DNA from: Neorhizobium galegae | GTDB taxonomy: Bacteria; Pseudomonadota; Alphaproteobacteria; Rhizobiales; Rhizobiaceae | Direction: 5' to 3' | Assembly (NCBI RefSeq): GCF_021391675.1 | Contig: NZ_CP090095.1 | Location: 4,520,001-4,584,000 of the forward strand | Length of the DNA stretch: 64,000 nt | The notes under the pieces: generated by a model | The model's database searches: none | The model's input: the letters and a program-made list of their open reading frames with translations, nothing else | Told to the model about the DNA's origin: nothing | Shown: piece after piece, positions 7,271-37,339 of the stretch | Layout of the letters: the number at the start of each line of letters is the position of its first letter | How positions within the stretch are numbered: the first letter of the stretch is position 1 | Made by a program: the position numbers and the translations under genes

Positions 7271-7840
7271 TCAGTTCTTGGCGCGCTCGACGTAGGAATT
7301 GTCTTCGGTGGCGATCACGACGCGGGTGCCGGCATCGACATGCGGCGGAACCGCGGTACGGATGCCGTTCGACAGCATGGCCGGCTTGTAGGACGAGGAA
7401 GCAGTCTGGCCCTTGACGACCGGTTCGGTCTCGACGATCTCGAGCGTGACGTGGCGCGGCAGCTGAAGAGCCAGCGCGATGCCTTCGTGCATGGACAGAA
7501 CGCAGGTCATGCCTTCCTGAAGATAGGCCTTCTGGTCGCCCATCGTGTCCACGTCCACCACGACCTGGTCGTAGTTTTCCGGGTTCATGAAGTGGAAGCC
7601 TTCGCCGTCTTCATAGAGGAACTGGTGGTTGACGTCCTCGACGAAGGCGCGCTCGACCTGCTCGGTCGTCCGCCAGCGCTCGGACACCTTCACGCCGTCG
7701 ACGATGCGGCGCATATTGACCTGCGTGACAGGCGTGCCCTTGCCGGGGTGGAAGTTCTCGGCGGTGAGAACGACATAAAGCTTGCCGTCCACATCGATGA
7801 CGTTGCCCTTGCGGACGGAAGAGGCGATGACCTTGACCAT
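7271..7840 (-). CDS. efp: Translation elongation factor P (EF-P)
   Basis: 189 residues, the standard length. EF-P enters the ribosomal E site and rescues ribosomes stalled on polyproline motifs. The N-terminal KOW-like domain contains FHPGKGTPV, and counting from ATG 7840 puts the lysine at residue 34, the residue that carries (R)-beta-lysine in Escherichia coli EF-P. The C-terminal OB domains end with the family signature region ([17 protein letters not shown]). The genes that make and attach beta-lysine, epmB and epmA, lie divergently next door. In Agrobacterium this gene is chvH, needed for normal virulence gene expression. A much longer in-frame reading upstream has no EF-P homology and was rejected. 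Confidence 0.96.
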
Positions 7841-8005
7841 GGGATTCCTTGTGGTGCGAACCGGCTTGTAACTGCCGAAAATGCGTCGTAGAGGACCGGG
7901 CGATAACCGGCCCGAAGGACGGATCGTCTGTTTTCCGGCCGGAACTACTCTAAAACCGCGCAAAGTGGAAGCCTTGCCGGGGAGAACCGGCGAAGAAAGC
8001 CGCAA

Positions 8006-9076
8006 ATGAGCTCGTCGCGACCTGCCATATCCCGCTCGCCCTGGTGGACGCCGGCAAACCATGCCGACCGCCGGCCCTTCCTGATGGGCCGCAACGCGGT
8101 CCAGACGGCGTTGCGCGACTTCTTCTCCGAGCGCGATTTCATCGAGGTCGATACGGCGACGCTCCAGGTTTCCCCGGGCAACGAGACACATCTGCATGCC
8201 TTCGCAACCGAAGCGGTCGCCATCGATGGCGGCAGGGCGCCGCTCTATCTGCACACGTCGCCGGAATTCGCCGCCAAGAAGCTGATGGCCGCCGGCGAGA
8301 AGCGTATCTTCACCTTCGCGCATGTCTATCGCAACCGGGAACGCGGGCCGCTGCACCATCCGGAATTCACCATGCTGGAATGGTACCGCGTCGGCGAAAG
8401 CTACGAACAGCTGATGGCCGATTGCGCCGAGATGCTGGCACTGGTCGCCGATACCACCAGGACCGGGCGCTTTGCCTTCCGCGGGATGGAAGTCGACCCT
8501 TTCGCCGAGCCGGAACGCCTGACGCTCGCTGAAGCCTTCGACCGGTTCGCTGGCATCGACCTGCTCGCCTCCGTCGCGACGAACGGCGATACCGACAGGG
8601 ACCTTTTGGCGGCCGGCCTGAAAAAGGCCGATATTCGCTTTGCCGAAGACGACACCTGGGCAGACCTTTTCAGCAAGGTTCTGGTCGAGAAGGTCGAGCC
8701 GCATCTCGGCCAGGACCGCGCGACGATCCTCCATGAATACCCGGTTTGCGAAGCAGCGCTTGCCCGCCCTTCCGCCCGTGATCCGCGGGTCGCCGAACGT
8801 TTCGAGCTTTATGCCTGCGGCGTCGAGCTTGCCAATGCCTTTGGGGAACTGACCGACGCCGGCGAACAACGCCGCCGTTTCGAGCACGAGATGGCCGAGA
8901 AATCCCGCATCTACGGCGAACGTTATCCGCTCGACGAAGACTTTCTCGACGCGCTTTCGATCATGCCCGACGCAAGCGGCGCCGCACTCGGCTTCGACCG
9001 GCTCGCCATGCTGGCAACGGGTGCGACCCATATCGAACAGGTCATGTGGGCGCCGGTCGCGGAGGTGCTTGGATGA
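8006..9076 (+). CDS. epmA: EF-P--(R)-beta-lysine ligase (EpmA/GenX/PoxA)
   Basis: 356 residues. A class II lysyl-tRNA synthetase paralogue without the anticodon-binding domain; it activates (R)-beta-lysine and transfers it to lysine 34 of EF-P. Class II motif 2 is seen in [20 protein letters not shown] and motif 3 in [15 protein letters not shown] near the C-terminus. The N-terminal [11 protein letters not shown] segment and [15 protein letters not shown] are also typical. The stop overlaps the epmB start by ATGA, so the two are cotranslated. It faces away from efp across 165 bp. Confidence 0.94.
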
Positions 9077-10119
9077 CCGCAACGCGTTCACTGAAGGCCG
9101 CCGATGATCTGGTATCCGCCGGACTGATCGAACCCGAAAAACTTGCCTCCATTCGTGCGGTGGCGGATCATTATGCCATCGCCCTGACACCGACCGTGGT
9201 TTCGCTCATCGACCGCACAGACCGGCAGGATCCGATCGCCCGGCAATTCGTCCCCGATCCGGCCGAACTGCTGACGACGCCGGAAGAGCGTGCCGACCCG
9301 ATCGGCGATCAGGCGCACAGCCCGGTCAAGGGCATCGTTCACCGCTATCCGGACCGGGTGCTGCTGAAGGCCGTGCATATCTGCCCGGTCTACTGCCGCT
9401 TCTGCTTCCGCCGCGAGATGGTCGGGCCACAAGGCGACGGAACGCTGGCGCCTGAAGAGCTGTCGGCGGCACTCGCCTATATCCGCGAGCATTCGGAGAT
9501 TTGGGAAGTGATCCTCACCGGCGGCGATCCGCTGGTGCTTTCGCCGAGAAGGCTTGCTGCCATCATGCGCGGCCTTGCAGAGATTCCCCATGTAAAGATC
9601 GTCCGCTTCCACACGCGGGTGCCCGTCGTCGAACCGGAGCGCATCGACGCGGCAATGATTGCGGCACTGAAGGAAAGCGGCAAGGTGGTCTACATCGCGC
9701 TGCACGCCAACCATCCGCGCGAAATGACCGACGCCGCCCGTGCCGCCTGCTCCCGCCTGGTCGATACCGGTTTTCCGATGGTGAGCCAGACGGTGCTCTT
9801 GCGCGGCGTCAATGACGATCCGGCGGTGCTTGGCGACCTGATGAAGGCTTTCGTCGAGACCCGGATCAAGCCCTATTACCTGCACCATCCCGACCTCGCC
9901 CCGGGTACGAGCCACTTCCGGCTGGATATCGCCGAGGGCCAGAAGATCGTCTCGGCGCTGCGCGGCACCATCTCCGGCCTCTGCCAGCCCACCTATGTCC
10001 TGGATATCCCCGGCGGCCACGGCAAGGCGGTGATCGGCGAAAGCGCCGTGCGCGGCGAAGGCGGATGTTATTCCGTCAGCGATTTCCGCGGCGGGGAGCA
10101 TGCGTATCCTCCGAAATGA
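9073..10119 (+). CDS. epmB: EF-P lysine 2,3-aminomutase (EpmB), radical SAM
   Basis: 348 residues. EpmB converts lysine to beta-lysine for EF-P modification. The radical SAM cluster motif is CPVYCRFC, with cysteines at residues 104, 108 and 111. [15 protein letters not shown] is the SAM-binding region, and GGHGK near the C-terminus fits the PLP-binding lysine of the KamA family. The length is short compared with clostridial KamA and matches the YjeK/EpmB class. Start ATG 9073 overlaps the epmA stop. No hydroxylase gene epmC is visible nearby. Confidence 0.94.
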
Positions 10120-10863: not shown

Positions 10864-12890
<2,027 letters not shown>

Positions 12891-13086
12891 CCCCCCTGGT
12901 GAATGACGCCATCAGAAACCCGCGGGCCGTTGATGTCAAGCCGGCCCATGCCGATGGCGATCGATCGGATTTTACGGAATCCCGCAGCCCTAACTTCACG
13001 ACGTTTATTGCCGGAATCTTAGGCTTTCCTGCGTAATAACGTCCCCAGCGATGAACGCAGAATTCGAACGATCCGGAGACGTCGAG

Positions 13087-13338
13087 ATGAACGAGACCAT
13101 TCGCGAATTGCTCACACGGGTAGGCGGCCTTCCGGTCGCGGTGACCGAGCTGGAAGACGGCGCCGATCTTTATGCGGCCGGCCTCTCCTCATTTGCATCC
13201 GTACAACTGATGCTGGGCCTGGAAGAGGCCTTCGACATCGAGTTTCCCGACAGCCTTTTGAACCGCAAGTCCTTCGCCAGCATAGCCGCGATCGAGCAGA
13301 CGGTTTCGCATATCCTGAAAGCGCGCGAGGCCGCTTGA
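13087..13338 (+). CDS. Small acyl/aminoacyl carrier protein
   Basis: 83 residues, an ACP fold of four helices. The phosphopantetheine attachment site is in AAGLSSFASVQLM; the serine at residue 35 takes the place of the DSL serine, with phenylalanine after it. Start ATG 13087 has GGAG about nine bases upstream; ATG 13051 would add 12 residues. It is the first gene of a five-gene operon and sits one base before the flavoprotein gene. The ligase two genes downstream belongs to a family that loads glycine or alanine on just such small carrier proteins, so this is its likely partner rather than a fatty-acid ACP. Confidence 0.88.
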   Translation: MNETIRELLTRVGGLPVAVTELEDGADLYAAGLSSFASVQLMLGLEEAFDIEFPDSLLNRKSFASIAAIEQTVSHILKAREAA

Positions 13339-13339
13339 G

Positions 13340-14521
13340 ATGAGCCTCCCCGCCTTTGCCGCCGACATGAGCCTGAGCGCCCGCGCTCACCGCGTGGCAA
13401 CCGTAGCGGCCGAATTTGCCGACCGCGTCGATCATGACGGCCGCTTCCCGCGCGAGGCGGTCGATGCCATGAGGGCCGAGCGCCTGATCGGCATCCAGAT
13501 CCCGGCCGCGTTCGGCGGCGAGGGCGCTTCGATCGCCGAGATCGCCGAGGTCTGCTCCATCCTGGGACAGGCCTGCGCCGCGAGCGCCATGGTTTTCGCC
13601 ATGCACCAGATCAAGGTTTCGAGCCTCGTCGAGCACGGCGGCGACAGCGAATGGCATAGGGACTTCATGCGCGAGCTTGCCGGCCGCCAGCTTCTCGTCG
13701 CCTCCGCGACGACCGAGGGCGGCATCGGCGGCAACATGCGCAACTCGATCTGCGCGATCGAGGTCGACGGCGACACCTGCCGGCTGACCAAGGATGCGAC
13801 GGTGATTTCCTACGGCGCCCACGCCGATGCGATCATGGTCACCTCTCGCTCCAACGAGAAGGCCGCACCGACCGACCAGGTCATGACCGTCTTCAAGCAA
13901 GGCCAGTATACCCTGCAGAAGACCGTCGACTGGGATACGCTCGGCATGCGCGGCACCTGCTCCGACGGTTTCCTCTTCAGGGGCGAGGCGCCGTCCGTCC
14001 AGATCTTTCCGAAGCCGTTCGCCGAGATCGCGGCGCAATCGATGCTCGCCACCTCGCATCTCCTCTGGAGCGCGGTCTGGTACGGGATCGCCGCCGATGC
14101 GGTACTGCGCGCCCAGGCTTTCGTACGCGCCGCCGCCCGCAAGGCGGGTGGCACCCAGCCGCCCGGCGCGCTGAGGCTCGCCGAAGCCTCGAACCTGCTG
14201 CAGCTCCTCAAGGCCGGCATCCTCTCCGGCCTCAGGATCTACGCGGATGCCAAGGCCGATCACGACCAGCTGTCGTCCATGGCGTTTTCGATCGCCATGA
14301 ACAACGTCAAGCTCGCCTCCTCCGAGACGATCCTGACCATCATCAACCAGGCGATGATCATCTGCGGCATCATGGGCTACAAGAACGGCACGCCCTACAG
14401 TCTCGGCCGGCATCTGCGCGACGCGCATTCCGCCCAGCTGATGATTTCCAACGACCGCATCCTCGGCAATACGTCGACCATGCTGCTCGTTCAGAAACCG
14501 GACACCAGCCTGCTCGGCTGA
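13340..14521 (+). CDS. Acyl-CoA dehydrogenase-like flavoprotein
   Basis: 393 residues. The fold is acyl-CoA dehydrogenase: N-terminal helical domain (to about 125), middle beta domain (ASATTEGGIGGNMRNSICAI, then SYGAHADAIMVTSR), and C-terminal helical domain (from about 230). The canonical catalytic glutamate and the CoA-binding pattern are not obvious, and the ending GRHLRDAHSAQLMISNDRIL resembles the class acting on unusual substrates. It lies between a carrier protein and its ligase. Family members such as PltE oxidise aminoacyl groups tethered to carrier proteins, so a carrier-protein-bound substrate is plausible here. That is inference. Confidence 0.85.
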   Translation: MSLPAFAADMSLSARAHRVATVAAEFADRVDHDGRFPREAVDAMRAERLIGIQIPAAFGGEGASIAEIAEVCSILGQACAASAMVFAMHQIKVSSLVEHGGDSEWHRDFMRELAGRQLLVASATTEGGIGGNMRNSICAIEVDGDTCRLTKDATVISYGAHADAIMVTSRSNEKAAPTDQVMTVFKQGQYTLQKTVDWDTLGMRGTCSDGFLFRGEAPSVQIFPKPFAEIAAQSMLATSHLLWSAVWYGIAADAVLRAQAFVRAAARKAGGTQPPGALRLAEASNLLQLLKAGILSGLRIYADAKADHDQLSSMAFSIAMNNVKLASSETILTIINQAMIICGIMGYKNGTPYSLGRHLRDAHSAQLMISNDRILGNTSTMLLVQKPDTSLLG

Positions 14522-14570
14522 CGCCCCGATCATTTCATATGTAAACCATTGAAAAGAATGAGGTAAAGCC

Positions 14571-15482
14571 ATGGATATGCAAGTTTCATTTCTCGACCGC
14601 CTGTTCGATGCAGGCCTGCTGATCGAGACGGGCGTCGACGGACTGTATGGCCGCAGCGGCCAGTTCGAAGACGTCATCGCCGCCTTCGAGCGGTTGATCG
14701 ACAAAGTCGGCGGTAGCGACGGTGCCGAGGCGATGCGCTTCCCGCCGGGCATGAACCGCGCCTTCTTCGAGACCAGCGGCTATATGAAGAGCTTTCCGCA
14801 GCTCGCCGGCACGGTGCATTCGTTCTGCGGCAACGAACTCGACCATATGAGCCTGCTGAAATGCATGGAAGTCGGCGAGGAGGACTGGACCAAGGGCCAG
14901 GAAGCGACCGACATCGTGCTGACGCCGGCCGCCTGCTATCCGCTCTATCCGACCGTCGCGCGGCGGGGCAGCCTGCCCGCCGGCGGCGCTCTCTTCGACC
15001 TGCAGAGCTACTGCTTCCGCCACGAGCCCTCCAAGGATCCGGCCCGCCAGCAACTTTTCCGCATGCGCGAATATGTCTGCATGGGCACCGAGAGCCACGT
15101 CACCGACTTCCGCCAGCTGTGGATGGATCGCGGGGTCGAGATGATGAAGTCGCTCGGCCTCGAGGTGGAGATCGACATCGCCAACGACCCGTTCTTCGGC
15201 CGCGCCGGCAAGATGCTGGTCAACAACCAGCGCGACCAGAACCTGAAATTCGAACTGCTGATCCCGATCACCTCTGTCGCCAAGCCCACCGCCTGCATGA
15301 GCTTTAACTATCATCAGGACAGTTTCGGCCTGAAATGGGGCCTCAACCTGGAGGATGGCAGCGTCGCTCACACGGCCTGCGTCGGTTTCGGCCTCGAACG
15401 CATCGCGCTTGCGCTCTTCCACACCCACGGTCTGGACGTAAAAGAGTGGCCGGGCTCCGTCCGCGCCACGCTCTGGGGCTGA
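14571..15482 (+). CDS. Amino acid--[acyl-carrier-protein] ligase (atypical seryl-tRNA synthetase homologue)
   Basis: 303 residues. This family looks like the catalytic core of the atypical (archaeal-type) seryl-tRNA synthetase without a tRNA-binding domain. It activates small amino acids (glycine or alanine) with ATP and puts them on the phosphopantetheine of a carrier protein; it was described for Bradyrhizobium and Agrobacterium. The zinc ligands of the family are visible as Cys122 (PAACYP), Glu167 (RMREYV) and Cys270 ([16 protein letters not shown], also class II motif 3). RMREYV is motif 2. The carrier protein gene lies two genes upstream. The fate of the loaded amino acid is not known. 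Confidence 0.92.
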
Positions 15483-15486
15483 TCCA

Positions 15487-16470
15487 ATGACGGCGGTATT
15501 TCCGGCGCTCGATCCGGCGAACTACAGGACGCATGCGCTGCATTCGGCCGAGCGCATGTGGCCGGAGACGAATTGTTACGTCGATCTGTGGATAGAGGTG
15601 CTTTCGGCACAGGGTCTGCCGCCGGAAGCCATGCTCGGCTTCACCCTGACCCAGGATTTCGAAGGCGACCAGTTCACCTTCTTCAAGGTGCCGCTCGAAG
15701 ACCTCGAGACCCTGTTCGGCATCCGCGTGACCGAATTGGCGATCTTCGACCGGCCGGAATGGCATGTTACGGAGCAGATCCGTCGCGGCCGACTGACGCT
15801 GCTCGAACTCGACAGCTTTTATCTGCCCGATACGCGCGGCGTCGCCTATCGCCAGGAACACGGCAAGACGACGGTCGCGATCAACCGGCTGGACCTCGAA
15901 CGCCGCGAGCTCGACTATTTCCACAATGGCGGCTTCTTCACCCTTTCCGGCGACGATTTCGATGGCCTGTTCCAGTTGAACGCCGGCCCCGAGGCGCTGC
16001 CCTTCCTGCCCTATACCGAGTTCGCCAAGTTCCCCGCCGCCTATCCGGACGCGAGGGAAATTCGCGAAACCGCCTGGAAGCTGCTCAGGCACCATTTTCC
16101 CCGGCGGCCGGAAGAGAATCCGATCCGAGCGTTCGGGAAGATCTTCCCGGCGCAGGTGGAGCGGATCGCCGAGAGGGATTTCGGCTTCTTTCACAAATAC
16201 GCGTTCAACACGCTCCGGCAGATCGGCGCCAATTTCGAGCTGCTGGCGAGCCATCTCGCCTGGCTGAACCACAAGGCGTTCGCCCAGCCTGAACAGCAGG
16301 CGCTGAGGATCTCGGAAGTGGCGAAATCCACCCAGTTCCAGCTTGCCCGCGCCCTTACCCGCAAGAAGTTCGAGCCGCTGGCAACAGCGCTCGATCCGGC
16401 CGCCGACGCCTGGGACCTGCTGATGGGGGACCTGGCATCGACGCTGAGCCACGCCCGCGAGGCCGCGTGA
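15487..16470 (+). CDS. DUF1839 family protein
   Basis: 327 residues, soluble by composition, with no signal peptide or membrane segment. It matches the DUF1839 family, which I know only from neighbourhoods with amino acid:[carrier protein] ligases. Conserved-looking blocks are HSAERMWPETNCYVDLWIE at the N-terminus, GDQFTFFKVPLEDL, and FHNGGFFTLSGDDFDGLF in the middle. It starts 4 bases after the ligase stop and its stop overlaps the next gene. The placement suggests that it acts on, or receives, the aminoacyl group from the carrier protein. No catalytic residue can be named. Confidence 0.82.
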   Translation: MTAVFPALDPANYRTHALHSAERMWPETNCYVDLWIEVLSAQGLPPEAMLGFTLTQDFEGDQFTFFKVPLEDLETLFGIRVTELAIFDRPEWHVTEQIRRGRLTLLELDSFYLPDTRGVAYRQEHGKTTVAINRLDLERRELDYFHNGGFFTLSGDDFDGLFQLNAGPEALPFLPYTEFAKFPAAYPDAREIRETAWKLLRHHFPRRPEENPIRAFGKIFPAQVERIAERDFGFFHKYAFNTLRQIGANFELLASHLAWLNHKAFAQPEQQALRISEVAKSTQFQLARALTRKKFEPLATALDPAADAWDLLMGDLASTLSHAREAA

Positions 16471-18953
16471 GCCTTCTTATCCCGATCGGATCAGAGACCA
16501 GCCTTCTTGCCGAGGGCTGGTCTCTGGCGTTGACCGAGCCTGGCGCCTGCTCCCTGCCGTCCGATCTTCCTCCGGACCTGGAATACCTCCCGGCCATGGT
16601 GCCCGGCACGGTCGCCGCCGCCCTGGAAGCCACAGGCCGCTTCGACCGCAACAATCCCGAGCCGCTGATCGACAGGGATGTCTGGTATCGCTGCCGGCTT
16701 GCCGGTGAAGCGCCCGGGCCGGCGATCCTGCGGTTTGCCGGGCTTGCGACTGTCGCCGATGTGTTTCTCGGCGAGACGCTGATCCTGTCCTCGACAAGCA
16801 TGTTCGAAAGCCACGATGTCGCGGTGGAACTGACGGGCACGGAAACATTATCGATCTGCTTCCGCGCGCTGAAGCCGCATCTGGAAAGGACAGGCTCCCG
16901 TGCCCGCTGGCGGCCGCGGCTGATGAACAACCAGGGCTTGAGATTTGTCCGCACCACGGCGCTCGGCTTCATGCCAGGCTGGAGCCCGGAGGTCCATGCC
17001 GCGGGGCCATGGCGGCCGGTTTTTCTGATTGGCGGCGCCGGCTCCTTCTCCCCCCTTGCGGGGGAGATCGGATGGGGCGCCGTCTTCCCTTACATCGCTG
17101 CGGAGAGAAGGGATTTCAGCTTCTCAGCCGCACTCGGCGAAGATGGTGAAGGTCTCCTGAAGGTGAGCTTTGCCGATGACGAGCTTAGTCACAACCTCCA
17201 CCTCATCTGCGCCGGTCACGAAGCTGCGTTCACCTACGACGAAGGAAAATACTCCGCCGAGCTGCACCTTCCCGGCGTCAAACCCTGGTGGCCGCATACC
17301 CATGGCGAACTGGCCCTCTACGACGTGGCGCTCCGGATCGACGGCAAAGATTTTCCCCTCGCCCGCACCGGCTTCCGCAACATCCGGATAGATCGTGGCA
17401 CGGACGGCGACGATTTCGCCGTCATCGTCAACGGCGAGAAGATATTCTGCCGCGGCGCCGTCTGGACCTCCGCCGATATCGTCGGTCTGCCGGGCGATCG
17501 CGCCGGCTATGAGCCCTGGCTCAGGCTCGCCAAAGACGCGGGCATGAACATGATTCGCATTCCGGGCATCGCCACCTATGAAAGCCCGGATTTCTTCGCG
17601 CTGTGCGACGAACTCGGCCTGCTGGTCTGGCAGGATCTGATGTTCGCCAATTTCGACTATCCTGCCGGCGATCCGGATTTCGTGATTCACGTGAAAACGG
17701 AAGTCGGGCAGTTCCTGGCGGCGACGCAGGCCTCGCCGTCGCTTGCGGTCCTTTGCGGCGGCAGCGAAATCTATCAGCAAGGCGCCATGCTGGGCCTGCC
17801 GGAACGGATCTGGAAAGGTCTGCTCTGCGAGGAGATCCTTCCTGCCTTGGCAGCCGATTGCCGGCCGGACCTGCCCTATGTGGCGAATTCGCCCTCCGGC
17901 GGCGCCTTGCCTTTCTACCCGAATGCCGGCGTCGCCCATTATTACGGTGTCGGCGCCTACAAGCGGCCGCTCGAGGATGCGCGGCGGGCAAACATCCGTT
18001 TCGCAGCCGAATGCCTGGCATTTTCAAACCTCTCCGACTCGGAAACGCTGGCCGGCGGCAAGTCCGGAATCCCCCGTGATGCCGGGGTGGACTGGGATTT
18101 CGAGGACGTTCGCGATCATTACCTCGGCATCCTTTACGATGCCGATCCGCGGACGTTGCGTGCGCAGCAGCCGGAACGATATATCGCCCTCTCCCGCGCC
18201 GTGACCGGGGAGGTGATGGAAATCGCTTTCGCCGAATGGCGCCGGCCCGGATCGACCTGCAACGGCGCGCTGGCCTTTACCTTCCAGGATGTCATGCACG
18301 GTCCCGGCTGGGGCGTGGTCGGCGTCGACCGCAGGCCGAAACCTGCCTGGTTCGCGCTGAAGCGGGCCTTCCGGCCGGTCCAGGCCATATTTGCCGACGA
18401 GGGCACCAATGGGCTGGATGTCCATCTCATCAACGAAACGCCCGCCGACCTGCCGGTCGTTCTGGAATTGGCCTGCCTGCGGGACGGCAAGATGCCCGTT
18501 GTATCCGGCCGCCGAGACCTGACGCTTGTTTCTCGCAGCAGCGAAAGCATCGCCTCGACCGATCTGTTCGGCGCCTTCTTCGACACCAATTACGCCTACC
18601 GTTTCGGCCCGCCCTCTCACGACGTGACGGTTGCGCGGCTGAAACATGCGCAAACGGGGGAGATTGTCGCGGAGGCTTTCCATTTCCCGCTCGGACGCGT
18701 CCGCGCTTTCCATGATGCCGAGATTGCGGTTTCGGTTGCAGAGGGCGACGGAGAGTTCTGGCTGGAGCTTTCGACGGACATCTTTGCGCAATCGGTCAGC
18801 ATCGAATGCGCCGGTTATCGTCCCTCGGACAATGGCTTTCACCTGGCGCCGGGGGCAATCAGGCGCATCCGCCTTGCCGCACTCCCGGAGGCCGCCGGCA
18901 GGCCCGGCGGCACGATCCGTTCACTCGGCGGCGATCGAATCCTGCGTTTTTGA
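16467..18953 (+). CDS. Glycoside hydrolase family 2-like protein (beta-mannosidase-like)
   Basis: 828 residues. The order fits GH2: N-terminal jelly-roll sugar-binding domain (about 1-190), immunoglobulin-like domain (about 200-300), TIM barrel (about 300-600), and a C-terminal beta domain. Candidate catalytic glutamates are in LCGGSEIYQQG (acid/base) and RFAAECLAF (nucleophile). FALCDELGLLVWQDLMFANF is a typical barrel segment. There is no signal peptide, so it should act in the cytoplasm. GTG 16467 overlaps the DUF1839 stop. A palindromic repeat core is read through in frame near residue 194. GH2 membership is confident; the substrate, and whether it is a true hydrolase, are not. Confidence 0.8.
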   Translation: MSLLIPIGSETSLLAEGWSLALTEPGACSLPSDLPPDLEYLPAMVPGTVAAALEATGRFDRNNPEPLIDRDVWYRCRLAGEAPGPAILRFAGLATVADVFLGETLILSSTSMFESHDVAVELTGTETLSICFRALKPHLERTGSRARWRPRLMNNQGLRFVRTTALGFMPGWSPEVHAAGPWRPVFLIGGAGSFSPLAGEIGWGAVFPYIAAERRDFSFSAALGEDGEGLLKVSFADDELSHNLHLICAGHEAAFTYDEGKYSAELHLPGVKPWWPHTHGELALYDVALRIDGKDFPLARTGFRNIRIDRGTDGDDFAVIVNGEKIFCRGAVWTSADIVGLPGDRAGYEPWLRLAKDAGMNMIRIPGIATYESPDFFALCDELGLLVWQDLMFANFDYPAGDPDFVIHVKTEVGQFLAATQASPSLAVLCGGSEIYQQGAMLGLPERIWKGLLCEEILPALAADCRPDLPYVANSPSGGALPFYPNAGVAHYYGVGAYKRPLEDARRANIRFAAECLAFSNLSDSETLAGGKSGIPRDAGVDWDFEDVRDHYLGILYDADPRTLRAQQPERYIALSRAVTGEVMEIAFAEWRRPGSTCNGALAFTFQDVMHGPGWGVVGVDRRPKPAWFALKRAFRPVQAIFADEGTNGLDVHLINETPADLPVVLELACLRDGKMPVVSGRRDLTLVSRSSESIASTDLFGAFFDTNYAYRFGPPSHDVTVARLKHAQTGEIVAEAFHFPLGRVRAFHDAEIAVSVAEGDGEFWLELSTDIFAQSVSIECAGYRPSDNGFHLAPGAIRRIRLAALPEAAGRPGGTIRSLGGDRILRF
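17047..17067. repeat. Palindromic repeat core inside the GH2-like coding sequence
   Basis: TCTCCCCC-CTTGC-GGGGGAGA is a perfect 8-bp hairpin and matches the core of the repeat at 10728-10750 read on the other strand. The element is translated in frame as part of SFSPLAGEIGWG, at the boundary between the first two domains. Confidence 0.7.
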
Positions 18954-20753
18954 ATAGGCGAGCTCTTCCAGCGGAAAACGGAAAGCCATTTGCCTGAGAG
19001 CCTTGAGATAGGCAGCCCGGGCATGCTCCGGCGTCAGATTGTGGTCGGCATCCGGAATGATCTCCGCCAATACATTGGGGAAACGGCTCAATCCGGACCC
19101 GTCATGGCCGAAATAGAAGTCGTATTGTTCGAGGCCGAGATCATTTTCGCTATAGATCAGCGAAATGGAGGTGCCGCGCTGGTGGAGGGTGCGGAAAGTG
19201 CCGTAGATCGCCCGGCCCTCCGGCAGGAAACCACGAAAGGCATGCAGGATCTTGTGCTTGGCTCGGTTGCCGAGACCCTTCGCGATATTGCGGGCCGCGA
19301 CAATGGTATCGACCTCACCTCGGATGATGCGCTTGAACGTTTCGGCTCGCAGGGCCCGCCTGCGATAGTCCTGCAGGCTGCGCGTGCCGTTGACGATCGC
19401 ATCCTCGACCGAACGGCCAGGCGACCAGCGAAACACGGCGGGATTGACGGATACATTGCCGGCGATGCGAGGTTCGGCGACCGAGGCCTGGAAGCCGAGA
19501 TAGGCACCGCTGCAGCGGCCTGCGGTCACGACCGGCGTCAGGCGACGGCTTTGGAGAAAGTCGATCGCCTCCGATACATCGGCATTTTGGGTGGAATGAT
19601 AAAGGACCTGCTCCGGCCGACCCGGCACCGGCGGGCTATCTCCCGCATTGGCCGTATCGAAACGCAGCGAAGGAATGCCGGAGCGGGCCAGCGACCGGGC
19701 CAGCGCCACCGTCGTGCGGCCCCAGCCGGCATGCCTGTCATAGGCCGATGTCAGGAAAAGCACCGTGGCGCCCGCGCGGCCGTGATTCGGCTCGCAGAGG
19801 ACCCCGAACAGCCGATCGTCGAGGCCGAAACGAACCGGGGTTTCCGTGAAACCGTCACCGACGAGCGGCTCCGCCTGCACCGGCGGGCGGTGTACCGCGG
19901 AGGGTGCCTCACCGGGTAACGCAACGATCCAGTCCGCCAGCTTGTCCGCCACCGGGAGCGGAAGTCTCGCAATCGCCGGATTGGAGACCAGCTGGTCGTA
20001 ACCTTCGAAAGCCTGCTCGGTTACATCCGCCCCGAGCGCCCGGAGCCGCGCGGCGAATTGCGTGTCGGCCGGCCGGTCGGCCCGTCCGACCACCAGAACG
20101 CGCGGCGCGGCCGGCCGATCGATCATCAGCAGATTGACCTTCCGAACCTCGTCGGCGATCTGGCCGGGCATGGTGAGGGAGGCGATGGACACGCCGGTCT
20201 TGTCGCGCTGCTCGTCGGCAAGGCCCAGATTTTCATCCACCACCCTGGACCAGACCGCAAGCTCGCGAATATGCAGGCGACCGGAAACGACCGGCGCCAT
20301 ATAGGCGATGCCGGCCAGATCGTCGAGCCTGTCGGCGGCCTTGGTCGCGACCACGGCCCCCAGGCCTTGCGAAACGAGGACGATCCGATCGCAGCCGGAA
20401 AGCGCCTTGAGATGCGTGGCAGCGGAAACGAGGCTGTCGGACCAGACGGAAAGCCCGCCCTCGAAATCGAGGTCGTCAAGCGCATCGCCGGTACCCGGAT
20501 AATCGAACCGCAGGCTGGCAATGCCGCGATCGGCAAGCCTTTCCGAAATGATGCGCCAGAACTTGCGCGTGCACATTTCCTCCAGTCCCCAGGGGCTGGC
20601 AAACAGCACCGCCACGCCGGACGGCGCGGTTCCCGCGGACGATGGCGTGAAAAGCCCGACAGTGCCGCCGAACGTCAGCGGTTGCGAAGCCGAGCGTTGA
20701 GGCAAGGGCGAGGTTTCCCCGGCGGTCGGGGATTTATGTCGAGCGTCCATCAT
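18921..20753 (-). CDS. Tandem two-domain alpha/beta hydrolase
   Basis: About 610 residues with two consecutive alpha/beta hydrolase folds (about 20-290 and 300-600). Both carry the SLRFDYPGTGDA / SLRFDTANAGDS strand seen in exosortase-associated and similar hydrolases. The nucleophile elbow of the first is LVSQGLGA (serine, first glycine lost); in the second it is GRCSGA, which puts a cysteine in the nucleophile position. The second domain also shows an acid (YSENDLG) and a histidine (DADHNLTP). Start is uncertain: ATG 20753 or GTG 20780. The 3' end overlaps the GH2-like gene by 33 bp. It may be esterase or thioesterase; function unknown. Confidence 0.75.
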   Translation of the reverse strand: MMDARHKSPTAGETSPLPQRSASQPLTFGGTVGLFTPSSAGTAPSGVAVLFASPWGLEEMCTRKFWRIISERLADRGIASLRFDYPGTGDALDDLDFEGGLSVWSDSLVSAATHLKALSGCDRIVLVSQGLGAVVATKAADRLDDLAGIAYMAPVVSGRLHIRELAVWSRVVDENLGLADEQRDKTGVSIASLTMPGQIADEVRKVNLLMIDRPAAPRVLVVGRADRPADTQFAARLRALGADVTEQAFEGYDQLVSNPAIARLPLPVADKLADWIVALPGEAPSAVHRPPVQAEPLVGDGFTETPVRFGLDDRLFGVLCEPNHGRAGATVLFLTSAYDRHAGWGRTTVALARSLARSGIPSLRFDTANAGDSPPVPGRPEQVLYHSTQNADVSEAIDFLQSRRLTPVVTAGRCSGAYLGFQASVAEPRIAGNVSVNPAVFRWSPGRSVEDAIVNGTRSLQDYRRRALRAETFKRIIRGEVDTIVAARNIAKGLGNRAKHKILHAFRGFLPEGRAIYGTFRTLHQRGTSISLIYSENDLGLEQYDFYFGHDGSGLSRFPNVLAEIIPDADHNLTPEHARAAYLKALRQMAFRFPLEELAYSKTQDSIAAE

Positions 20754-20836
20754 GGTCGTGCCGGCAGGTTTTTTGATCACTGCACCAGCAATACGTCCGT
20801 CCTTGCTTCCAGGCGCTTAAACTATCTGGTGCAATT

Positions 20837-21886
20837 TTACCGATCGCAGCCGGATTGTTCCGAAAAGACGCGGGAGAGAACCTGCATCTGCGGCCGGTCG
20901 CCGCTTTGGGTCGGCTGGATGTTGAGCGGTTCGTTTTCCGGCCACCATTCGCCGCCCGCCCAATAGGACCAACCGAGCCAGACATCGGCGCCCTGTTCGA
21001 CCGTTCGGACCATCTCGGCAAGTGCCGGCAGGCAGTCCGGAGTGGCAGGGACTGCGAGTTCCCCCAGGTATCCGCGCTGCCCGTGCTCCCGAAGCCAGCC
21101 GGCCATGTCGCCGATCGCCTTCACGGCGTCGGCTGCCCGTGAGCACTCGGTGTTTTTCCCGGAGAAATCCGTGTCCAGGTATTGATGGACCTCATAGGCG
21201 TAGTTGTCCTGCGGATCGGAAATCGCGAGCATGGCCGCCGCATTCGGGGTGCCGTAATCCCCGGCAGGCCAGCTGTGGGCACCCGTCCAGGCGGTGCCCG
21301 GTACGAGCACGAGATTGGCGGCTCCCGTCTGGCGGATCGCGCCGATCGCGCTGTTGGCGGCGGAAAGCCAGTCTTCGGCCGAAATGCCGTAGGGTTCGTT
21401 CATCAGGCCGAAGGCGATCCCGTCGATGCCGGCTGCGGCTGCGGCGAGCCGACGCCAGAAATCCGCGAATGCGCTCTGCGGCACAGTTTCGGAGCCTATC
21501 GGCTGGCCGCGAAACCGCCCGTAATTATGCGGATCGAGAATGACCGCCATGCCGCCGGCGCGGATCAGCCGGACCGTCTCGAGCAGCCGCTCGAGCTCGG
21601 CGGAATCGAGCCCCTTGTAGAGCTGCGGCTGGAGCCTTTCCCAGAGAAACGGCAGGCGCACCGTGTTGAAGCCCCTGCCGGCGAAATAATCGATCGTTTC
21701 CTTGGTGGGATAGATATAGCCCTTGCCGTATTCGTCCCCGAGACTGCCGAACTCGGCGCCGGCCAGGTTGACGCCGCGCAGACAGGCGGTCTTTGCCTCG
21801 GCCGCTCCGGCCGCTACCGCCAGGGACACCAGAACGCCCAGCAAACGCGAGACGCCGCAGTCGACTTTTCGAGACCTCTGCTTCAA
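20837..21886 (-). CDS. Secreted glycoside hydrolase family 5 (endoglucanase-like)
   Basis: 349 residues. TTG 21886 has GGAGGA four bases upstream and gives a Sec signal peptide (SRLLGVLVSLAVAAGAAEA), so export is expected. The GH5 signatures are LRGVNLAGAEF at the mature N-terminus, FNTVRLPFLWERLQP, the acid/base glutamate in GLMNEPYG, HQYLDTDFSG, and the nucleophile glutamate in GELAVP. The best match in kind is bacterial endo-beta-1,4-glucanase. It follows the tandem hydrolase gene region on the same strand after 83 bp, and no cellulose synthase gene is in view. Confidence 0.85.
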   Translation of the reverse strand: MKQRSRKVDCGVSRLLGVLVSLAVAAGAAEAKTACLRGVNLAGAEFGSLGDEYGKGYIYPTKETIDYFAGRGFNTVRLPFLWERLQPQLYKGLDSAELERLLETVRLIRAGGMAVILDPHNYGRFRGQPIGSETVPQSAFADFWRRLAAAAAGIDGIAFGLMNEPYGISAEDWLSAANSAIGAIRQTGAANLVLVPGTAWTGAHSWPAGDYGTPNAAAMLAISDPQDNYAYEVHQYLDTDFSGKNTECSRAADAVKAIGDMAGWLREHGQRGYLGELAVPATPDCLPALAEMVRTVEQGADVWLGWSYWAGGEWWPENEPLNIQPTQSGDRPQMQVLSRVFSEQSGCDR

Positions 21887-22197
21887 GTCTTCCTCCAGTG
21901 CGAAGCCGCAACCTGCCACCATAACCTTTAGCAAATGCGAATCGTTGCCCGAAGCGCTCCCGCGGCGGTGATGCGCGCGCCGACGCCGCAAAGGGAACGG
22001 AATTTTGGGTGGCCGGCTTTAAGGTCGGCAGGTAAGAAGCTCATCTGGACAGACAAACAAGACGGACTGTACACATTCCACAACCAAATCTGGGCCTCTC
22101 TGGGCATTTCCCTGCCTGCATGAGGCTGGATATTGTCCGACACCAATTTTATGTATACACGGAGTGGCCGACCGATGGCAGAGGAGGGAGAATTTGC
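21887..22197. other. Intergenic stretch between the GH5 gene and purU
   Basis: 311 bp between divergent genes. A 62-codon frame at 21935-22123 has no visible ribosome binding site and no recognisable product. The part next to purU holds GAGGAGGGAG at 22181-22190, which serves the ATG at 22198. I see no clear operator or hairpin. Confidence 0.5.
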
Positions 22198-36702: not shown

Positions 36703-36749
36703 GGTCTCGTCCTTTCGCCCTCCACCCGAGGGCCGTTCACGTTCTTTGC

Positions 36750-36952
36750 CGCCTCTGGCAGGTCTCCTGGCTCGCGGATCGGACGCCTTCTCCCGCCTTC
36801 CCAGGATACCGTTGGCCGGATTTCCCAGTGGCTTGACGGCCGGACGGCCGTTTTGGGTAAAGACTTTCCGCTTACAGTTGCGGGGGCAGCCGCGGGTTGG
36901 ACGGCAAATCCGTCGCACCGCATTCCCTCTAAAACCCTTTCGGGCACCATAG
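36750..36952 (-). ncRNA. Cobalamin riboswitch controlling cbtB-cbtA-cobO-cobQ
   Basis: On the minus strand the element contains GAATGCGGTGCGA, the core GCTGCCCCCGCAACTG, AAGCCACTGGGAAATC, GGGAAGGC, and the B12 box AGCCAGGAGACCTGCC at about 36757-36773. Downstream, GCCCTC-N5-GAGGGC (36717-36733) forms a hairpin just before the cbtB ribosome binding site, a candidate translation-control platform. Confidence 0.95.
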
Positions 36953-36960
36953 GCTCGGTC

Positions 36961-37033
36961 ACTATAGACGAATTCGGCCTCACGGCAATCGCCTTTGCGA
37001 CGCATTGACATGGGTGTACGACCGGGCTTACTT
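36961..37033. promoter_or_regulatory. Divergent promoter pair between the two cobalamin riboswitches
   Basis: Plus strand: TTGACA (37005-37010), 17 bases, TTACTT (37028-37033), just before the right riboswitch. Minus strand: TTGCCG (36983-36988), 16 bases, TATAGT (36961-36966), before the left riboswitch. Both fit the housekeeping sigma pattern by eye. Confidence 0.5.
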
Positions 37034-37040
37034 GAAAACA

Positions 37041-37218
37041 GATGGTCCCTTTCCGGCAACGGGGAGGGCTAAGAGAGAATGCGGTGCGATCCTCTTCTTG
37101 AGGATCAATGCCGCGGCTGCCCCCGCAACTGTAGGCGGCGAGCCATTGCCGAGAGGCCACTGGGAAACCGGGAAGGCAGGCAAATGGCGACGACCCGCGA
37201 GCCAGGAGACCTGCCGTC
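37041..37218 (+). ncRNA. Cobalamin riboswitch controlling DUF1636-cobW-cobN-cobG-cobH-cobI-cobJ
   Basis: Recognisable parts in order are GATGGTCCC, GAATGCGGTGCGAT, the core GCTGCCCCCGCAACTG, GAGAGGCCACTGGGAAACC, GGGAAGGC, and the B12 box GAGCCAGGAGACCTGCC at 37199-37215. About 120 bases of leader separate it from the first start codon. Confidence 0.95.
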
Positions 37219-37339
37219 CGTTTAATTTTGCTTCACCGGGCGGGGTGCTCCGGAGGAAGTGTCTCGATCACCGCAGAGGGATTTCGACCTTCTGCTCCGC
37301 GCCCCGATTTTTCGACCCCGGCGGGAACGCGGCTGACCG

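Follow-up and report, generated by a model that had tools for sequence, protein, structure and literature searches.

A conserved aminoacyl-carrier-protein operon in Neorhizobium galegae and its papain-like DUF1839 protein, a candidate aminoacyl transferase to amino sugars

Amino acid:[carrier protein] ligases resemble class II aminoacyl-tRNA synthetases (aaRSs), and Table 1 of PMC9437257 lists glycine and alanine loading as the activity of members of the family; in that article the role of the loaded amino acid was still called unknown in 2022. The ligases Bll0957 (PDB code 3mey) and 4h2w and the carrier protein Atu2571 (2jq4) are the nearest structures. A gene set around such an enzyme was described in a note added in proof to Iyer et al. 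2010 (PMC2922099), where a paralogous seryl-tRNA synthetase is linked to an acyl carrier protein, a redox enzyme, Atu2574, a glycosidase and liposaccharide genes. The same note predicts that Atu2574 forms an amide between the amino acid and the amino group of a sugar, and it assigns a monooxygenation of the aminoacyl group to the redox enzyme. PMC11941606 mentions Atu2573 as a hub gene. A related chemistry is that of the lincosamide condensing enzyme CcbD (and LmbD), a Cys enzyme that couples a carrier-bound amino acid to an amino sugar. In this paper we describe an operon with the 2010 gene set in Neorhizobium galegae. It lies in the window, the whole 64,000-nucleotide stretch analysed (positions 4520001-4584000 of contig NZ_CP090095.1, within a 6.05 Mb genome).

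The operon consists of genes for a carrier protein (CP), an acyl-CoA-dehydrogenase-like flavoprotein (ACAD), the ligase (LIG), a DUF1839 protein and a GH2-like protein. The first-pass annotation had described them as five packed genes, and this is confirmed, together with their positions and common strand (Table 1). CP and ACAD are separated by 1 base, ACAD and LIG by 49 bases, and LIG and DUF1839 by 4 bases, and the DUF1839 and GH2 genes overlap in GTGA. The CP reading frame spans 13051-13338; position 13087, chosen earlier as the start, is an in-frame ATG, and either start is possible. Atu2574 can be read as the DUF1839 protein, because the 2010 gene list agrees with Agrobacterium loci in which DUF1839 follows the ligase; the DUF1839 of one such locus (L039) is 69 percent identical to ours. 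The pathway is thus not undescribed, as had been supposed at first, since both the gene set and the idea of joining an amino acid to an amino sugar were in print in 2010 (PMC2922099, in the note cited above). The operon is real, conserved and mostly anticipated in that year. The genes and the amide-to-sugar idea are the same, but the 2010 account, in the part available, gives no fold for Atu2574 and no counts; it reports no experiment, and neither do we. What is new here is a fold with enzymatic precedent, counts with their misses, a sixth gene, cases of a lost cysteine, and outgroup contexts. In the literature searched, the coverage of which was partial, we found no experiments on DUF1839, nor on the operon apart from those on the ligase and CP. 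Nothing of use turned up there on exosortase clusters, glycyl polysaccharides or alanine-antimetabolite clusters, and PMC3759415 has no bearing on the operon.

We lean slightly towards the reading that the operon makes a carrier-bound, amino-acid-derived acyl group and transfers it to an amino sugar, either in a surface polysaccharide or in its lipid-linked precursor. LIG would activate a small amino acid, glycine or alanine to judge from the activity of its relatives, and load it onto CP, where ACAD would alter the tethered group. Cys30 of DUF1839 would then accept the group, and the enzyme would form an amide with the amino group of a sugar, in the way that CcbD handles carrier-bound proline. 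A cytoplasmic GH2 would trim or recycle the glycoside, and the adjoining double hydrolase HYD2 would act later in the same route. The gene set, its conservation and co-inheritance, the fold and the active-site residues are observed; from these we infer every reaction.

It is important to consider how widely the gene set is kept. A genome scan with DUF1839 gave at least 569 relatives, of which the best 80 were used as loci; nearly all of these are Rhizobiaceae or Rhizobiales by name, with one metagenome-assembled genome of Arenimonas. A phylum-wide draw of 398 evenly sampled Pseudomonadota genomes provided 15 DUF1839 regions, the window's own genome being left out, and nine plasmid loci were read among 59 plasmid records with DUF1839. 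Triple counts below refer to these three samples in this order. Among the matches listed, the DUF1839 closest to that of the window is from Neorhizobium (98 percent). All five genes keep one order and one strand in 79 of the 80 scan loci, and the remaining one (L007) is without CP only, its contig beginning inside ACAD; these loci are near relatives and so give little evidence on constraint. The ordered operon was also found in 15/15 regions of the phylum-wide draw and in 9/9 plasmid loci, from Rhizobium, Azospirillum, Methylobacterium, Mycetohabitans, Caballeronia, Burkholderia and Cupriavidus. Two loci, L117 and L093, have a second, better-scoring DUF1839 besides an operon copy that is in order. 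Given that the order is kept across the samples, the five-gene arrangement is not due to chance.

Co-occurrence was also counted over the 398 genomes. DUF1839 is present in 16 of them (18 copies) and LIG passes its cut-off in 28 (44 at E <= 1e-3), with all 16 DUF1839 genomes among the 28. The outcome is one-sided. Where DUF1839 is present the whole set is present (16/16), and ACAD stands beside LIG in 28/28, which agrees with the partnership first proposed; however, 12 of the 28 LIG genomes are without DUF1839, and GH2 is missing from their fetched regions. Seven of the 17 genomes that the draw holds of the window's own family carry the operon, and the window's own genome gave one match each for LIG and DUF1839.

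The most useful new fact is the match of the predicted DUF1839 fold, over its whole length, to CcbD and its kin. The protein belongs to its Pfam family with 426 bits, and the AlphaFold2 model (pLDDT 87.6, pTM 0.88) has, by Foldseek and VIA matches, a papain-like fold with a C-terminal helical part, as in CcbD (9dkr), CtaG (9quz) and AziU3. In the model C30 opens the helix of residues 30-41, which is where the carrier-protein-dependent amide-forming enzymes CcbD, CtaG and BtrH have their nucleophilic Cys, at the start of the first long helix. This residue is kept in 104 of 107 locus copies and in 39 of 41 other alignment members; H146, H125 and D109 are present in all 107 locus copies and T128 in 104. 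Among the families that the structure search listed, the fold matches favour one of the two roles first considered for DUF1839, release or transfer of the aminoacyl group: DUF1839 is best read as a transferase that uses a sugar as acceptor. The likeness to CcbD is that both would be Cys enzymes with a fold shared over the whole length; a difference is the loader, presumably an enzyme of non-ribosomal peptide synthetase (NRPS) type for CcbD and aaRS-like here.

LIG scores 512.3 bits against the curated cut-off of 357 of PRK07080, and matches 4h2w and 3mey with 330 and 313 bits; the zinc set C122/E167/C270 noted in the first-pass annotation is the same as in those two ligases and is kept in 92/92 aligned sequences. 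CP passes both Pfam PP-binding (30.4 bits, cut-off 20.8) and PRK07081 (115.6 bits, cut-off 72), its PDB relatives are 4h2w_C and 2jq4 (E about 3e-32, with 113 bits to the latter), and Ser35 occurs in 86/86 aligned sequences.

The flavoprotein differs from what had been expected. ACAD passes the Pfam cut-offs for Acyl-CoA_dh_N and Acyl-CoA_dh_1, with Acyl-CoA_dh_M below its own. A prolyl dehydrogenase of the PltE type was tried as a candidate and is not supported, as ACAD reaches 31.8 bits against the cut-off of 650 of NF045652 (RedW prolyl-carrier dehydrogenase). The positions of the catalytic base were taken to be those of MCAD Glu376 and IVD Glu254. Ser239 occupies the IVD-type position in the HMMER alignment, in a column of Ser, Ala, Cys or Thr, and Ile369 the MCAD-type position by ungapped extension from a conserved RDA; both columns are free of Asp and Glu throughout the 87 aligned sequences. 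The low score and the lack of an acidic residue speak against the PltE-type oxidation proposed earlier. The columns without an acidic residue argue against ordinary dehydrogenation and leave monooxygenation, the 2010 prediction, or an atypical oxidase, so that by its residues ACAD is more likely a flavin monooxygenase or atypical oxidase than a PltE-type dehydrogenase. H240, W243 and W247 are conserved (85, 86 and 85 of 87), as is D372 (84/87), which may serve as a base, so that these two columns are no proof. The AlphaFold2 model of ACAD is of moderate quality (pLDDT 70.5) and matches dehydrogenases and monooxygenases alike, and therefore decides nothing.

The GH2-like protein scores 50.4 bits with Glyco_hydro_2_N2 (cut-off 27) and 129 bits in phmmer to 5n6u and 2vjx. 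Its E434 and E515 align with CGNNE and SEFG of 2vjx, in residues that we take to be the catalytic Glu, and both are found in 84 of 85 sequences, the remaining one being gapped. No signal peptide was seen by eye, so the protein probably works in the cytoplasm. The two halves of HYD2 resemble exosortase-A hydrolases 2 and 1, but at 78 bits against 168 for hydrolase 1 (TIGR03100) and 60 against 203 for hydrolase 2 (TIGR03101) they are below the cut-offs, and unlike the PEP-CTERM hydrolases they are fused in one chain. HYD2 is found in the fetched stretch of 49/80, 9/15 and 6/9 operon loci and in 0/12 LIG loci without DUF1839; in Azospirillum, Mycetohabitans and Methylobacterium loci it is a co-directional sixth gene. 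It had been absent from the first-pass annotation. The GH5 gene that follows occurs in few operon loci (19/80, 2/15, 0/9), and its link to the operon is weak.

Genes of surface polysaccharide synthesis adjoin the operon in several lineages. An initiating sugar transferase, ManC and Wzc are near it in Cupriavidus CH34, a flippase with GT2 and GT4 glycosyltransferases in L079, and a Wzz-like gene in L025. A domain scan of L041 (14716-18021) found a Wzx-like flippase and HYD2 in one frame of 1101 residues; L044 (13554-16868) and L080 (14872-18183) have similar single frames of about 1100 residues. These single cases are stronger evidence than the overall counts.

Several observations weigh against attachment to a surface amino sugar through DUF1839. 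The polysaccharide queries, themselves drawn from operon loci, match 16/80, 9/15 and 3/9 of these, which is an uneven link, and they match 3 of 12 control loci (LIG without DUF1839), a difference from 9/15 that is not significant (Fisher p 0.12). The flippase of L079 found no match in the window's own genome, although an empty result is no proof of absence. The effect of ACAD on glycine lacks an explanation. By sequence, DUF1839 does not match CcbD or CtaG significantly; 4 of its 42 members match Pfam BtrH_N at all, each below threshold (lowest E 0.056, 14.1 against 29.7 bits), and hhalign of DUF1839 with BtrH_N proteins, taken as frames from seven BtrH_N loci, is insignificant (probability 1-2 percent; 1.7 with four motif-trimmed frames). 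Both weak alignments do pair C30 with the BtrH_N Cys and LELDSFYLPD with LQTSVFWLPY, and a search of the PDB with the DUF1839 profile gave no relevant match. A shared fold does not equal a shared reaction, and AziU3 is, we assume, tied to aziridine formation with no amide. The spacing of T128 and H146 is 18, against 16 for H128/D144 of CtaG as given in entry titles, and the Cys-to-His spacing alone also fits H146 as the canonical His. The triad of CcbD is Cys-His-Glu, whereas in DUF1839, according to PMC10318531, the His and Thr/Ser are exchanged in order relative to the relatives. Finally, C30 is missing in 3/107 locus copies, with T128 changed in the same three, and in 2/41 alignment members (P0187 and P0221). 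In L093, L117 and L116/L098 the DUF1839 of the operon is without C30, T116, T128 and T129; each of these genomes also has a second copy that is intact, and in L093 and L117 this copy faces the operon. The paired copies are perhaps a catalytic and a helper subunit.

In all 12 LIG genomes of the draw that are without DUF1839, ACAD is beside LIG, and DUF1839, GH2 and HYD2 are found in none of the fetched stretches of 14-19 kb. A protein of 291 residues lies near LIG in seven of them (L161-L166 and L170; for example L166:10411-11286), about 3 kb off in L170. Two copies were scanned without a Pfam or NCBIfam match; the name GNAT, given by eye, was dropped for want of such a family. It is possibly another aminoacyl transferase. 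Six of the seven loci belong to one genus, all six being without DUF1839 and GH2 and having this protein beside LIG. The LIG of L166 matches Bll0957 with 710 bits, the two being nearly identical, and the genus is therefore probably Bradyrhizobium; it also follows that the best-studied ligase belongs to another form of the gene set, since this locus, unlike the operon, is without DUF1839 and GH2. Among 16 genomes with low-scoring LIG relatives (26-29 percent identity), five loci were read and no ACAD was found.

Seven plasmid LIG loci were read of 95 records, picked for lack of DUF1839 or for distance. The Priestia plasmid has AcpS, CP, ACAD (39 percent) and LIG (42 percent), then an exporter and an ATP-grasp enzyme that resembles the dapdiamide synthase DdaF (212 bits against a cut-off of 840) and whose match to an amino-acid-ligase domain is sub-threshold. 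Next come genes for a thioesterase, alanine permease and alanine racemase; D-Ala-D-Ala-ligase-like and IscS-like genes lie upstream, and no DUF1839 is annotated. The cluster looks like an alanine-like antimetabolite pathway with self-resistance. On a Tsukamurella plasmid LIG and CP occur with a phosphopantetheinyl transferase among glycosyltransferases, a glycosylphosphotransferase, a lipopolysaccharide-biosynthesis protein and a double hydrolase, with neither ACAD nor DUF1839 in the locus. The remaining five loci, two of them in Pseudomonadota, hold LIG relatives of 22-33 percent in varied clusters. In the Streptomyces sp. NBC_00557 plasmid (L088, 6290-11111) a 3-hydroxyacyl-CoA dehydrogenase, CP, ACAD, an aaRS-like protein (33 percent to LIG) and an acyltransferase are consecutive. 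This row resembles the zwittermicin aminomalonyl-carrier cassette, but with an aaRS-like loader.

These contexts bear on what the operon makes. It is possible, though we would give it less than an even chance with all its parts taken together, that CP, ACAD and LIG are a portable core making a modified glycyl or alanyl thioester, which is plugged into different ends by lineage. In alpha- and beta-proteobacteria the end would be a DUF1839 with an exchanged papain triad acting on amino sugars of surface polysaccharide. In Priestia the thioesterase and the amino-acid-ligase-like enzyme would lead to a dipeptide antimetabolite against alanine racemase or D-Ala-D-Ala ligase, and in Bradyrhizobium-like genomes the 291-residue protein would take the place of DUF1839. 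The product could instead be a small metabolite that diffuses, either an aminoacyl-sugar or an oxidised amino acid; DUF1839 would then acylate a glycoside or a free amino sugar, which GH2 would release or activate. CcbD works in a small-molecule pathway, as presumably do CtaG and AziU3, the core sits within the antimetabolite-like cluster of Priestia, and 64/80, 6/15 and 6/9 operon loci have none of the queried polysaccharide genes. We nevertheless regard such a product as rather unlikely: a crude clustering of open reading frames brought up no exporter next to the operon, several lineages have a gene for a flippase, Wzz, Wzc, ManC or an initiating transferase close by, and in L041 HYD2 and a flippase form one fusion.

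An improbable alternative is that DUF1839 is a hydrolase, freeing the modified amino acid from CP as a thioesterase or acting on cell-wall glycans. The papain-like fold is shared by many hydrolases, a 2023 survey (PMC10318531) suggests from context an acyl-CoA-dependent processing of cell-wall glycans, and the Priestia cluster has a thioesterase and no annotated DUF1839. The fold matches to CcbD and its kin lead us to prefer the transferase. The suggestion made at the discovery of the ligases, and carried in the title of the 2010 PNAS paper, that non-ribosomal peptide synthesis draws on the carrier-bound amino acid seems very improbable for this operon, as none of the six annotated operon loci read has an NRPS or condensation-domain gene.

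Table 1. Positions of the operon genes, their neighbours and the compared loci (window numbering unless a locus is named)
Feature	Position	Strand	Basis or remark
CP, aminoacyl type	13087..13338	+	open from 13051; phosphopantetheine Ser35 numbered from 13087; NCBIfam PRK07081
ACAD, acyl-CoA-dehydrogenase-like flavoprotein without the usual Glu base	13340..14521	+	Pfam N and C domains
LIG, amino acid:[carrier protein] ligase, class II aaRS-like	14571..15482	+	NCBIfam PRK07080
DUF1839, proposed carrier-protein-dependent aminoacyl transferase, papain-like	15487..16470	+	Pfam, AlphaFold2 model, Foldseek
GH2 beta-mannosidase-like glycosidase	16467..18953	+	Glyco_hydro_2_N2
HYD2, fused double alpha/beta hydrolase, convergent	18921..20780	-	Hydrolase_4 over cut-off
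GH5 cellulase-family enzyme, possibly associated	20837..21991	-	Pfam Cellulase 170 bits; export-like N-terminal stretch (by eye)
Priestia aryabhattai plasmid cluster	L087, NZ_CP072477.1, 2802-18689
C30-less or second DUF1839 copies	L093:18840-19688 and 14001-14891; L117 8449 and 14185; L116 7477; L098

The flanks of the operon were also inspected. No sigma-70-type promoter match was found in 12600-19100, and terminator matches in the same interval were no better than those of shuffles. Frames resembling efp, epmA and epmB, named by eye, lie upstream (7271-10119), so that a second aaRS-like enzyme is near the operon. The epmA-like and epmB-like frames each recur upstream in 37 of 81 clustered stretches and a thiC frame in 28 of 81. 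They are taken as flank because the annotated loci of Azospirillum, Mycetohabitans and Caballeronia have none of these three genes next to the operon. A thiamine pyrophosphate riboswitch (12775-12907, minus strand) precedes thiC, this gene also named by eye. Two cobalamin riboswitches stand back-to-back at 36740-36966 (minus) and 37026-37232 (plus), beside what appear by eye to be cobalamin genes.

The link between DUF1839 and CcbD turns the question of the role of the loaded amino acid into a reconstitution with four proteins and a named class of acceptor. If CP, ACAD and LIG do form a portable core with the ends set out above, the surface polysaccharide would bear a new kind of oxidised-aminoacyl group. 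If the proposed attachment is true, a route derived from aaRSs would be added to the decoration of bacterial surface glycans.

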